Source: a virus. From it: a stretch of DNA of 30,129 nt. How positions within the stretch are numbered: position 1 is the stretch's first letter; each line of letters starts with the position of its first letter. Made by a program: the position numbers and the translations under genes. The notes beneath the pieces are model-generated. The model saw only the letters and a program-made list of their open reading frames with translations, did not search any database and was not told where the DNA came from. This document shows positions 2,906-30,129 of this stretch, in pieces. The stretch spans positions 1-30,129 of the IMG/VR virus record IMGVR_UViG_3300030108_003187, one strand, 5' to 3'.

Positions 2906-3061
2906 TTATTTGTTAATATTATAAAACTCATCACCATTATCAAGTAAAACTTTATTACCTTTTATCATTACAACTTTAGCTGTAACAATATCCTGTTTGC
3001 CAAACATGTATGTTTTTGTGTATTTTACTGTATCTCCGATGTTAAGTTTTAAATTGTTCAT
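2906..3061 (-). CDS. small SH3/KOW-like beta-barrel protein, 51 aa
   Basis: ATG at 3061-3059 is chosen. An upstream in-frame TTG at 3097 would place the start inside the promoter -7 box. The protein reads MNNLKLNIGDTVKYTKTYMF, then VTAKVVMIKGNKVLLDNGDE, a pattern of short strands with Gly turns typical of SH3-like or KOW-like barrels. Such folds often bind nucleic acid or peptides. It is the first gene behind promoter copy A. The fold call is moderate and the function unknown. Confidence 0.55.
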   Translation of the reverse strand: MNNLKLNIGDTVKYTKTYMFGKQDIVTAKVVMIKGNKVLLDNGDEFYNINK

Positions 3062-3086
3062 TGTTTTTTGTTTGTTAATTATGGTA

Positions 3087-3152
3087 TAAATATACAAAAA
3101 AATAATAACGAGGACAACTATTTACAGCTATCTGTCAAGTACTTACTAACAA
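3087..3152 (-). promoter_or_regulatory. early promoter/operator copy A
   Basis: On the minus strand, TTG (3117-3115), 20 bases, then TATATTTA (3094-3087). Six bases upstream of the TTG sits the near-perfect palindrome ACAGCTATCTGT (3124-3135, ACAG-N4-CTGT), followed by AAGTACTTACTAACA. Layout and spacing match copies B and C. It would drive the gene at 2906-3061 and lies just downstream of the structured RNA. Confidence 0.7.
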
Positions 3153-3165
3153 TTAAATGATGGTA

Positions 3166-3281
3166 GGGGTCGCTGGTGGAAGTAGTTTTTCTCTACTTTA
3201 TATTGGACTTGCAAATCCTCACCACCGATGCGACATTTTCAGGGTCTCAACCCCCAAGTTATATTCTAGAAATACAACTTG
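3166..3281 (-). ncRNA. candidate structured non-coding RNA with a three-way junction
   Basis: No gene fits the 199-base gap 3098-3296, yet 3166-3255 is clearly richer in G and C than its surroundings. On the minus strand it folds as follows: a 10-bp hairpin (3281-3272 with 3264-3255, loop of 7); then GGGGG and an optional GGG/CCC hairpin (3253-3242); helix GTCGC/GCGAC (3234-3230 with 3173-3169); helix GGTGG/CCACC (3226-3222 with 3179-3175). The last closes a junction with two arms: GGATT-TGCA-AGTCC (3218-3205) and AAGTAG-N7-CTACTT (3198-3180). CCC at 3168-3166 can pair with the 5' G run. In two helices the minus strand has a G-U pair where the plus strand would have an A-C mismatch, which points to a minus-strand RNA. 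Not a tRNA: no T-loop and no sound anticodon arm. It may be cut from a transcript started at 3638. Function unknown. Confidence 0.6.
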
Positions 3282-3296
3282 CTTACCACTACATCT

Positions 3297-3608
3297 TTAC
3301 ATCCTTTGTATTTTTTGTTGTTCGTAGCTAATGTATTTACACCATCTTCCGGCATCTACAACTTTTTCTTTTGTATTGTTTTTTGCTCTAGCTTGTACAA
3401 TCATAATTGCTAATTGGTATTTTGTTAATTGGTGTAATTTATTTTCTGTCTGCCAATCAATCATGGTTTTTAGTGCCATTTCTAATCTTCCAATTAAATC
3501 ATATTTACTGTTATCACCTAGTAAATAATCTACTCTAAATTTGTCGTCTGCATCTAGATTATTCCAGATATTGTCAAGTTGTTGTCTATTTAATTTTTTT
3601 GTTTTCAT
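3297..3608 (-). CDS. hypothetical early protein, 103 aa
   Basis: First gene of the leftward early transcript, behind promoter copy B with a leader of about 25 bases. The protein is helical and basic (MKTKKLNRQQLDNIWNNLDA, then YQLAIMIVQARAKNNTKEK, then AGRWCKYISYEQQKIQRM). There is no known motif and a single Cys. Being first behind the strongest-looking promoter suggests an immediate-early role, possibly in host takeover or regulation, but the family is not recognised. The stop is followed at once by the structured RNA region. Confidence 0.65.
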   Translation of the reverse strand: MKTKKLNRQQLDNIWNNLDADDKFRVDYLLGDNSKYDLIGRLEMALKTMIDWQTENKLHQLTKYQLAIMIVQARAKNNTKEKVVDAGRWCKYISYEQQKIQRM

Positions 3609-3637
3609 TTTTTTGTTTTTGTTTGTTAATTATTGTA

Positions 3638-3704
3638 CAAATATAAACATAATCCATATATCCTGCAACTATAAACAGCTTTCTGTTTAGTATTTATTAA
3701 CAGA
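3638..3704 (-). promoter_or_regulatory. early promoter/operator copy B
   Basis: On the minus strand, TTG (3668-3666), 20 bases, then a perfect TATATTTG (3645-3638). Upstream is the palindrome-like ACAGCTTTCTGT (3675-3686), then TTAGTATTTATTAACA. This is the best match of the three copies to the Bacteroidetes -7 consensus and probably the first early promoter. The 183-base gap 3609-3791 also holds the divergent plus-strand promoter. Confidence 0.7.
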
Positions 3705-3791: not shown

Positions 3792-4280
3792 ATGAATATA
3801 TTTTATTTACACAAAAATCCTATCATTGCACCATCATTCTTATACAACAAGCACGTGGTCAAAATGATATTAGAAACTGCACAGATGCTTTGTACTGCAC
3901 ATCATCATTACGCAGATAAACACAATTACGACAAATCATATATACCTTACAAACCTGCTTATGTTAATCATCCTAGTACAAAATGGGCTAGGCATAATGC
4001 AAAAACTTACAAGTGGTTATATGATTATTTCGTATCTATCAATATAGAGTATTACGTTAGATATGGAAAAATCCATACAACTTATATTAAATGCAGAAAA
4101 GCACTTGCAGATATTCCTGTTGGTATTCCTAGTGGAAAATTTATACAACCACCACAATGTATGCCAGATGAGTACAAAACAGATTGTAGCTTAGACGCTT
4201 ATTGGAACTATTATATTGGTGCCAAACAGCATATTGCTAACAAAAACGAAAATATTATCACAAAGGCATTAGTAAATTAA
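3792..4280 (+). CDS. conserved phage protein of unknown function; only plus-strand gene
   Basis: 162 residues. The N-terminus (MNIFYLHKNPIIAPSFLYNK, then HVVKMILETAQMLCTAHHH) matches a family I recall from many marine and other phages: MNIFxLxxxPxxxAxxxxDKHVVKMxLExxQxLxTAH. Its function is not settled to my knowledge, though some annotations suggest a DNA-repair or nuclease-like role. Conserved His and Lys near residues 21-40 and NHPSTKWAR at about 58-66 could form an active site. It has its own promoter and ends tail-to-tail with the phosphoesterase gene, overlapping it by 23 bases, so the two transcripts are antisense at their ends. No membrane or signal segment is seen. Confidence 0.7.
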   Translation: MNIFYLHKNPIIAPSFLYNKHVVKMILETAQMLCTAHHHYADKHNYDKSYIPYKPAYVNHPSTKWARHNAKTYKWLYDYFVSINIEYYVRYGKIHTTYIKCRKALADIPVGIPSGKFIQPPQCMPDEYKTDCSLDAYWNYYIGAKQHIANKNENIITKALVN

Positions 4281-8661: not shown

Positions 8662-10569
8662 TTAACTTGGTACGTCATTTGTTATATCTGCTTCACTCAT
8701 ATTTGTCATCATTCCTGGTACACCATTTACTTGTTTTACTGATACGTTATTTATACTAGCATTTAAAGAATGTCCACTATTACCTGTACCCATTTGAAAG
8801 TAACCTGTAGTAGTAGATGTTATTGTCAAGTATTTAGTATATGTACCACTTGCACTTATTAATTCATTATTACTTATTTGTGTACCTGCACCTGTTACTA
8901 CACTACTAAATGCTATTCTTAAATCATCTCCACTATTTTTAGTATAATCAAAAGTAACTTTATATGTCTGTCCTGATGTTACACTTATAGCATTTGATAC
9001 TGCACCTGCAAAAGCAGAAGATACAATAGCACTTGTAATATTATTACCTGAAGTTGTAAAGGTTGTAAAAGGAAAAGTAGTACCATTTGTAAACCCTGTT
9101 ACTAACTCACTACCTAAACTAGGTTCTACCATATCACATATTAAAGGGTGTGTGTCTAATATACCATCACCCATTCTATAATAGTTTTTAAGATTAGATG
9201 AACTATAAGGTATTGAATTTAATATAAGGTTAGTAGCTACATATTTTTGTTTTTCTACCATTACATTTGTTACGCTACCAATAAATGTAGTACCTGCTGT
9301 GAAGTTTAGATTACCTGCCCCTGTTGCTGGACTGCCAATAAAACTTTTAAAACCAGATGTTGTAAATGATTGAGACATACTTCCAGAACTTGCAGTTACA
9401 GAACCTTGTGTTACTACTAAATCAAAAGAAAGTTTATAAGTATCAGTTAAATCATTATCAAATGTGTCTGATTGTACAAAATTAGAAGTGCTAGTTTGAG
9501 AACCATCACAATTTGCCTTAGAATCTCCATAAGACCAACCAGTATTCAACGTCCACCTGTCGTTAGGGTCTATTTGTTTTATAGATATATTCGTTATATC
9601 TAAGGTTTGTCCTACTTCTACCGTACCTGCCAAATACAACCTAAAAGTAGTACTTGTTACAGGAACATAAAACTCGTAATCTTGGAAAGATGTTGTTAAA
9701 TTTGGGTTTGAGATAACATATTGTGGGTTTGAACTAATATTATTATTATCTCCAATAGAACCAAAGTTATTAGTAGCTGTTCCTTTTGCTCTAAATGTTA
9801 CTCTATAAGATTTACTTGATGTTACTATACCTGATTTAAATAAAGCTGAACCATTAGTTAAATCATAAGTCAATCTCATAAAACCATCTTGTAATGATTT
9901 GGTTGCTCTTGGTTCACTATCTGTTGTAGCTATACTCCAAAAATCAACTGCTTCTTGATTTGTAAAATTACCGTCAGCTAATATCTCTCTATCTAACTCT
10001 TCAAGCCTACCATTATGTACTAAGTTAGCACCATACTTTATTCTGTATATCTTTGTTACTTCTTCTGGTTCTAATGCTCTGTTCCATATTGCTAGTTCAT
10101 CAATTTTGCCTAAAAACTCGTTTGCTCTGTCGCTAAAGTTTCTTGAACCTATTTCTGCGTTTGTCGTAGTACTTATTTCTTGCTCTGTTGTAGCATTACT
10201 AACTAAACTACCGTCTATATATAGACTTTGTGTTGCTCCATCATAAGTAGCTACAATATGATGCCATTCGCCTACACTTATTGCACTACCAGAAGTAATA
10301 TCAGATGTGTTAAGTTGGTATGTAACAACTTCTCCAGATGTTACAAATATTCTTATACCGTCATCATTAGCATCTCTAGCATCTATGATTGTTTTACTAG
10401 CATCTGAATTACTAACTTTAACCCACGTGCTTATAGTGTGTTGTGTATAGCTTATTGGTTCATTTAATTGTATAAAGTCATCTAAACCATCAAAATCTAC
10501 GCTATGGTTATTTACAAACCTATATATAGGTTGCGTATTTTTGCTTAAATTTCTGTGTAATTTTAGCAT
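8662..10569 (-). CDS. LamG-domain surface protein with several carbohydrate-binding-like modules
   Basis: 635 residues. Residues about 20-175 are a laminin-G-like jelly roll: SVDFDGLDDFIQL, HTISTWVKV, GEWHHIVATYDGATQSLYID, and LGKIDELAIWNRALEPEEV. Behind it are two or three beta-sandwich modules of CBM type, each with SYRVTFRAKG or TYKVTFDYTK and a closing NISIKQ/NVSVKQ strand, and YYRMGDG between the last two. Such proteins bind surface polysaccharides, so this is a candidate receptor-binding or capsid decoration protein. The start ATG directly follows the upstream TAA. It is encoded among capsid genes rather than with the tail hub, so its place on the particle is uncertain. Confidence 0.75.
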   Translation of the reverse strand: MLKLHRNLSKNTQPIYRFVNNHSVDFDGLDDFIQLNEPISYTQHTISTWVKVSNSDASKTIIDARDANDDGIRIFVTSGEVVTYQLNTSDITSGSAISVGEWHHIVATYDGATQSLYIDGSLVSNATTEQEISTTTNAEIGSRNFSDRANEFLGKIDELAIWNRALEPEEVTKIYRIKYGANLVHNGRLEELDREILADGNFTNQEAVDFWSIATTDSEPRATKSLQDGFMRLTYDLTNGSALFKSGIVTSSKSYRVTFRAKGTATNNFGSIGDNNNISSNPQYVISNPNLTTSFQDYEFYVPVTSTTFRLYLAGTVEVGQTLDITNISIKQIDPNDRWTLNTGWSYGDSKANCDGSQTSTSNFVQSDTFDNDLTDTYKLSFDLVVTQGSVTASSGSMSQSFTTSGFKSFIGSPATGAGNLNFTAGTTFIGSVTNVMVEKQKYVATNLILNSIPYSSSNLKNYYRMGDGILDTHPLICDMVEPSLGSELVTGFTNGTTFPFTTFTTSGNNITSAIVSSAFAGAVSNAISVTSGQTYKVTFDYTKNSGDDLRIAFSSVVTGAGTQISNNELISASGTYTKYLTITSTTTGYFQMGTGNSGHSLNASINNVSVKQVNGVPGMMTNMSEADITNDVPS

Positions 10570-27548: not shown

Positions 27549-27906
27549 AATATTTATCATATAAGGTTTTCATTGCATTATACATTTGGTTAAGGCAACT
27601 AGCACAATTAGTATTTGTTTTGTAGTTTGTCTTATATATTTTATTGTATAACTCCACAAATCTTTTTTTTGTTTCTACATCTGGTGCTTTTCCTGTCTTT
27701 ATTTTTTGCCATACACAAAGTATTTCTTCCTGTAAATTTTCTTCCTCGTTTTTATAAGGAAACATTTCGTTAAGTTTTTGTTGCCTTTCATCACAACCGC
27801 AGTCATCTTTACCAACTGCATTAGCAATTTTTTTGGCTAACTTATCTATCTTAGTTGCTGATGTTATTTTTTTTATTGTATCTCCTAAACCTTTACTCTT
27901 TGTCAT
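27538..27906 (-). CDS. Cys-pair protein of Bacteroidetes phages, 122 aa
   Basis: It begins KGLGDTIKKITSATKIDKLA, then ANAVGKDDCGCDERQQKLNE. The CGCDER box and the later NCASC near residue 100 give four cysteines that could hold a zinc ion. I recall the GLGDTIxKxTxATGIxxxV...DCGCxxRxxxLN pattern from many flavobacterial phages, always without an assigned function. The last 60 residues are helical. It is coupled to the sigma-like gene (14-base overlap). It might be a regulator or an adaptor of RNA polymerase, but that is only inference. Confidence 0.6.
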   Translation of the reverse strand: MTKSKGLGDTIKKITSATKIDKLAKKIANAVGKDDCGCDERQQKLNEMFPYKNEEENLQEEILCVWQKIKTGKAPDVETKKRFVELYNKIYKTNYKTNTNCASCLNQMYNAMKTLYDKYYGK

Positions 27907-28432
27907 CTAATTCTTCTTTTATTTCCTGCCTTATCTTATTTATTGTATTATATATACTATTTCTACTTATACCTGTTTTTTCTGCTAAACTATCCAATGT
28001 GTTATTTTCATAGTAATATAATTTAAATATTTCTTTATCATACCAATATTTAGTATCTAGTATTTCATCTATTTTTTCTAAGTATTGCCATTTTATATCT
28101 GGTGCCTCGTTAGGTATATTTCTATAAGGTTTTACACCTGCAGTAGCAGTATAATTCCAACTAATATTTTCATAATATTTTTTGTATTTATAATAGTATG
28201 GACTTTTTGTGCTATGAACAGAACGCCTCATAACCACACCTGCATACCTTAACAAACCATCTTTACCATCTTTATCATATATTTTTTGTAATGTTGTTTG
28301 GTTCATTTGCAACATATATACTAATGTTTCCTGTACAATTTCCTGTATTTCGTTATAATCCTTTATTAGTCCATATGCCATATAAACCATTGTTTGCCTT
28401 AGGTCAGCAATTATATTATGCAATTCATTCAT
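27893..28432 (-). CDS. sigma-70-like transcription factor
   Basis: 179 residues. Residues about 10-42 resemble sigma region 2 (MAYGLIKDYNEIQEIVQETL, the helix that grips RNA polymerase and melts the -7 region). Residues about 125-176 are region 4 with a helix-turn-helix (YYYENNTLDSLAEKTGISRN, then SIYNTINKIRQEIKEEL). This two-part layout is that of ECF-type factors and of sigma-like proteins common in Bacteroidetes phages. It probably redirects host RNA polymerase to late promoters; such promoters are not visible, so their sequence is unknown. It overlaps the upstream gene by eight bases. Confidence 0.65.
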   Translation of the reverse strand: MNELHNIIADLRQTMVYMAYGLIKDYNEIQEIVQETLVYMLQMNQTTLQKIYDKDGKDGLLRYAGVVMRRSVHSTKSPYYYKYKKYYENISWNYTATAGVKPYRNIPNEAPDIKWQYLEKIDEILDTKYWYDKEIFKLYYYENNTLDSLAEKTGISRNSIYNTINKIRQEIKEELDDKE

Positions 28433-29791: not shown

Positions 29792-30129
29792 AAGTATTGT
29801 TTTCCTTTTTCGTATTCGTTTAATTGTATATCTATTTTAGATAATGTTTGTATTTTGTTTTTGTTTAATGTATTGCTAGATATGTTTGTTTTGTTTCTCC
29901 TTTCCCATGTCCTAACACTAGCTTTCCAATCTTTCATTTTGTTTTTACCAACCATCCAATTTTTACTATCATAAAAATCACAAAACGCCTCTGCATCAAC
30001 GTTATTTTCTCTCTCAATACAATAATTTTTTACTTGTAAAATTGTTGGTCTCTTAAAATATTTATTATTTATTTTTATTTCTTTATTATTATTATTAGTT
30101 ATTAAGTTATTATAGTCCTTGTTATTAAG
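29788..30129 (-). CDS. phage replication protein, C-terminal part (continues from 412-1 across the joint)
   Basis: Second part of the 217-residue replication protein described at 1-412. Within this copy, 30030-30129 repeats bases 1-100; the unique coding part is 29788-30029 (TGA at 29790-29788). It holds the conserved block with FYDSKNWMVGKNKMKDWKA and VRTWERR, then a Lys/Asn-rich tail ending YEKGKQYL. The stop overlaps the next start (ATGA). The unbroken frame over the joint shows that the contig is circular rather than truncated. Confidence 0.75.
   Translation of the reverse strand, partial: LNNKDYNNLITNNNNKEIKINNKYFKRPTILQVKNYCIERENNVDAEAFCDFYDSKNWMVGKNKMKDWKASVRTWERRNKTNISSNTLNKNKIQTLSKIDIQLNEYEKGKQYL
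30030..30129. repeat. right copy of the 100-bp terminal overlap
   Basis: Identical to 1-100 except position 30031 (T instead of A at 2). If removed, the unit is 30,029 bp. It lies wholly inside the replication gene, which argues against a biological direct terminal repeat and for an assembly overlap of a circular or permuted molecule. Confidence 0.9.

Follow-up and report, generated by a model that had tools for sequence, protein, structure and literature searches.

The question raised by this locus is what a G+C-rich interval with no apparent gene does in the early region of a phage genome, and whether it encodes a structured RNA, as the earlier note had proposed for positions 3098-3296. The window, i.e., the whole 30,129-nt stretch of DNA that was analysed, carries an exact terminal repeat of 98 bases (3-100 = 30032-30129); hence, the contig is circular in the assembly, and the genome (∼30.0 kb) is probably complete. 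Nearly all the genes of the window are on the minus strand, matches to terminase and portal proteins are present, and the closest cultured portal relatives are the Nonlabens phages P12024S/L, with 34% identity. The window is probably a tailed phage, and its hosts would be marine flavobacteria.

Position and boundaries of the element

Regarding its setting, the interval 3062-3296 is the longest gap within the mapped genes, and the RNA that it contains (3159-3295) has 43% GC against 31% genome-wide, a value reached by just 0.6% of 137-nt segments; both the gap and the rise in G+C had been perceived correctly in the earlier note. The interval that it gave held in part: the conserved RNA occupies 3295-3159, while positions 3098-3158 are the promoter/operator repeat region of the next gene. 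The features of the locus are the following:

3638-3668, minus strand: likely promoter of the 103-aa gene and of the RNA, TTG-N20-TATATTTG, from a pattern scan
3297-3608, minus strand: 103-aa gene, stop codon at 3299-3297, directly upstream of the RNA
3159-3295, minus strand: structured RNA of 137 nt, 5' end at 3295, defined by a gapless homologue in the phage record L084 and by covariation
3065-3151, minus strand: promoter/operator repeat of the next gene, defined by self-matches and deletion breakpoints

The 5' end of the RNA falls immediately past the stop codon of the 103-aa gene. As for this gene, its Pfam matches were all below threshold, and the only relative found is the copy in L002 (window 3297-3608; L002 3324-3617), with an amino acid identity of just 67% though the two phages are otherwise 95% identical, as if the gene had been exchanged separately from the adjoining RNA.

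The consensus of Bacteroidetes-type promoters is TAnnTTTG, and the promoter at 3668-3638 is taken to be of this type by comparison with it. Three similar promoter/operator repeats occur on the minus strand (3616-3702, 3065-3151, and ∼2305-2390), each preceding a single early gene and each with an ACAG...CTGT-like inverted repeat; among close relatives, these repeats are the edges of cassette exchange. The one at 3065-3151 is 77% identical to that at 3616-3702 and forms the boundary of the RNA cassette; the gene after the RNA, which spans 2906-3061 or 2906-3097, is separated from it by this promoter repeat of its own. No Rho-independent terminator, processing or cleavage signal was found at the 3' end of the RNA. 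Elsewhere in the window, the minus-strand gene at 27893-28432 encodes a sigma-factor-like protein (phrog_1740, sigma-70 region 4-like matches), which might govern one promoter class.

Fold, homologues and covariation

The RNA of L002 differs from that of the window at 8 positions. L084, found with an exact 18-base probe, is a phage record of 30.5 kb whose genes are ordered almost as in the window and most of whose proteins are 30-80% identical to those of the window; its RNA (L084:8706-8842, minus strand) sits at the corresponding place, with the metallophosphoesterase gene on one side and the early genes on the other, and aligns with the window RNA at 80% identity and without gaps, five syntenic genes having 64-72% nucleotide identity. 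In the alignment of the three sequences (A2), column c corresponds to window position 3296-c. The elements of the fold, all on the minus strand, are:

3292-3286/3168-3163: closing helix P1 (GUAG-U-GG/CC-CUAC), 17 of 18 cells paired, one double change
3289-3284/3165-3160: alternative closing helix (GUGGUA/UACCAU), 16 of 18 cells paired, one double change
3281-3270/3266-3255: hairpin H1, 12 bp, one double and three one-sided consistent changes
3254-3250/3245-3241: hairpin H2, loop UGAG, one double change and two broken cells
3169-3234: three-way-junction domain, base helices almost unchanged, with 100% of their cells paired
3234-3230/3173-3169 and 3226-3222/3179-3175: stacked base helices GUCGC/GCGAC and GGUGG/CCACC
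3218-3205: arm H6, loop UGCA, one double change
3198-3180: arm H7, loop AGAAAAA, two double changes

H2 abuts H1 directly, and a six-base linker then leads to the three-way-junction domain. All the minus-strand helices named in the earlier note, six in number, are predicted, and what it had missed is the closing helix; of the two overlapping versions of this helix, which have similar support in the three sequences, RNAalifold picks the alternative one. The two-state switch that had been suggested on the basis of a GGGGTTG/CGACCCC pairing did not survive the comparison: one of its pairs is broken in L002 and two in L084, with no compensatory change.

Across the three sequences, 95.5% of the helix cells are paired. 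In six pairs, distributed over five helices, both partners changed and the pairing was maintained; shuffles had a mean of 2.0 such pairs (1 in 500 was as high), and the double changes dropped to 0-1 in controls with the partners slid; this covariation covers two independent lineages and is in effect one evolutionary comparison, strong for what it is and drawn from a shallow alignment. Compensatory changes of the kind by which the note had proposed to check the fold are, therefore, present in L084. RNAalifold run without guidance returned nearly the same structure, its inner part being identical, and the covariance model R1 scored 166 bits on the window and 148 on L084. As to the comparison of folding energy with shuffled sequence, also proposed in the note, the minus-strand RNA has a minimum free energy between -43 and -43.6 kcal/mol, with z ∼-4.1 to -4.3; z is also ∼-4 for L002, and the L084 RNA just moderately beats its shuffles (z -1.8). 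The plus strand of the element folds more weakly, with z of -3.1 to -3.2. Finally, the minus strand has 13 G-U cells versus 2 A-C cells, an excess that identifies it as the sense strand, the conclusion that had already been reached by the same reasoning.

Variation is not evenly spread along the fold: the window and L084 differ at 4 of the 41 inner unpaired positions and at 20 of the 88 paired ones, a low variation of loops and joints that is expected if these make contacts. The apex of H1, UUCUAGA, is invariant, and the loop sequences UGCA and CUAG are self-complementary and unchanged in all three sequences.

As for known families, Rfam 15 gave no match in the window at the gathering score, a permissive search of the RNA locus returned only a chance match to HOTAIR_2 (E 4.1), and the L084 locus had no Rfam match; ARAGORN found no tRNA or tmRNA gene in the window. 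Pattern scans of viral and genome contigs gave only chance matches beyond L002 and L084; one of the viral-contig scans carries no weight, its gap range being too long for the known members. A covariance search of phages with endonuclease, portal or metallophosphoesterase relatives recovered no additional homologue, the 397 genomes searched in the family to which a flavobacterial MAG belongs gave one weak partial match (18.8 bits, judged as chance), and blastn of phage and plasmid records found no homologue. No description of the RNA was found in a limited search of the open-access literature. Overall, the element is very probably a real RNA under selection, and the sequences compared support its description as a structured RNA with a three-way junction, minus in sense and new to Rfam. 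Phage-encoded structured RNAs are a known kind; the fold and the family of this one are absent from Rfam.

Presence and exchange among related phages

The RNA is present in 3 of the ∼82 loci that cover the site, duplicates included, and these 3 represent two lineages. L003 lacks positions 3155-3587, and with them both the RNA and the 103-aa gene, its two flanks being 95-97% identical to the window; L005 and the 29-kb, near-complete G071 also lack both, with 95-97% identity. The relatives devoid of the RNA hold other small genes in the slot, most of them mutually dissimilar; in G071 and L003 the portal is 92-99% identical to that of the window, and the terminase of G071 is 99% identical. Because the edges of the deletion fall in the promoter repeats, recombination between repeats is a likely means of exchange. 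These genomes show that the RNA is dispensable in close relatives; given that such relatives lack it, that the slot is swapped, and that so few loci carry it, an essential role, in packaging or elsewhere, is unlikely in this lineage.

Within the early region, the only clear gene on the plus strand is that at 3792-4280, and it matches a pyrimidine-dimer DNA glycosylase (Pfam Pyr_excise; phrog_624); it has relatives in hundreds of marine phages, and L084 has no copy at the equivalent place.

Possible roles of the RNA

The main alternative to the reading preferred below is that the RNA works in cis in the early transcript, as an antitermination or processing site, a 3'-UTR stabiliser, or a regulatory leader of its own mRNA, and bacterial precedents exist for structured elements in 3'-UTRs (PMC2864571). 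It agrees with the position of the RNA close to where the early genes begin in both lineages, and in particular with that in L084, where the RNA is part of the early-operon leader, ∼60 nt before the start of the next gene and ∼370 nt downstream of a TTTG-TATCTTTG promoter; the leader upstream of the RNA in L084 has no additional stable fold. However, the neighbouring genes are not common to both lineages; the proteins encoded downstream of it in the window have no relation to those in L084, so that the conserved downstream association by which a riboswitch or a cis-acting leader is recognized was not found. In addition, close relatives that share the later early genes manage without the RNA, the next gene in the window has a separate promoter repeat, and neither a terminator nor an alternative fold is conserved, all of which makes a cis-acting element a somewhat unlikely solution. 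In the L084 leader (∼8890-9035, minus strand), inspection by eye reveals an apparent small HTH-like DNA-binding gene broken by a TAG stop.

The remaining explanations are far less probable. Covariation alone cannot tell DNA from RNA, and the site is a recombination hotspot, so that the hairpins might be formed by the DNA strands at a replication origin, or at a recombination or packaging site; such a DNA-level element is improbable, since the 13 G-U cells versus 2 A-C cells favour an RNA made from one strand and near-identical phages devoid of the element have complete replication and packaging genes. Lower still is the likelihood of a small plus-strand protein: the frame 3157-3327 is open in the window and its homologues, each having 45 codons or more, but substitutions are distributed as 12/8/7 over codon positions 1/2/3, the window and L084 differ by 3 synonymous versus 19 non-synonymous codons, many of the substitutions are accounted for by compensatory pairs, and the strand is opposite to that of nearly all genes. 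With no coding signature, this candidate is close to refuted. Very improbable to the same degree is a packaging RNA like the pRNA of phi29, one of the roles listed in the earlier note; the three-way junction would suit it, and multimers might form through the self-complementary UGCA and CUAG loops, but there is no match to pRNA in Rfam, and G071 and L003 lack the RNA despite the terminase and portal identities given above. An essential packaging RNA is refuted by these near-identical, viable-looking relatives.

The reading preferred here is that of a small RNA processed out of the early transcript and acting in trans, as a decoy or otherwise, which the earlier note had included among its options and which is possible on the sequence evidence; for the RNA as an accessory factor acting in trans, the chances are about even. 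A role in trans is likelier than the control of one neighbour because the downstream genes differ between the lineages and the window has a promoter repeat between the RNA and the next gene. In such a scheme, the minus-strand early mRNA would start at the promoter near 3645 and comprise the 103-aa gene, with the RNA as its tail; the RNA would then be cut out of the transcript, or its closed multi-branched fold would spare it from RNase trimming, and it would act by way of its loops and junctions, which are almost invariant. It may be an optional factor for host takeover or counter-defence that, for example, binds or titrates a host RNA-binding protein, a nuclease or a defence component; binding to a host component would agree with the early position, the accessory slot and the strong conservation of the loops, and it is accessory status and early position that suggest counter-defence. 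The antisense role proposed earlier found no backing, as the search for antisense or mimicry targets, which covered 149 genomes from a single bacterial family, perhaps not that of the host, gave only scattered matches at chance level. A bolder and doubtful proposal is that of a new structural class, namely a self-contained, perhaps multimeric RNA that acts against a defence or RNA-processing component of flavobacteria, by blocking or titrating it, and is swapped in and out of an early accessory slot like the genes of anti-defence proteins. A role is known for few of the structured RNAs that phages encode, and here a small RNA, a well-defined covarying fold, and natural pairs of phages with and without it make the function directly testable; if it were a true counter-defence RNA, the accessory slots of phages would hold RNA effectors besides small proteins.

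Among known systems, the pRNA of phi29-type phages is likewise phage encoded, has a similar length and contains a three-way junction; however, no sequence or covariance match links the two, the phage of the window has a conventional large terminase, and phages with the same terminase lack the RNA. Bacterial small RNAs derived from 3'-UTRs resemble it in that the window RNA starts a few nucleotides past a stop codon; they differ from it because it has no Rho-independent terminator and a compact, covarying multi-branch fold, and because the L084 RNA has no intact gene directly before it. RNA anti-CRISPRs (Racrs) are also small accessory RNAs of phages and a possible counter-defence tool, but they mimic single CRISPR repeats (PMC10651486), whereas the window RNA is a closed multi-branched fold of 137 nt with no repeated match in the 149 genomes of one family, perhaps not that of the host. 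GOLLD and ROOL are structured RNAs of phages and prophages, of unknown function and found by covariation like the present one; they reach several hundred nucleotides and often occur near tRNA islands (PMC12286853), whereas the window RNA is much shorter, has no Rfam match and lies in a window without tRNA. Both GOLLD and ROOL form multimers (PMC12286853), and the palindromic loops UGCA and CUAG could permit the same in the window RNA, which is to be taken as a lead.
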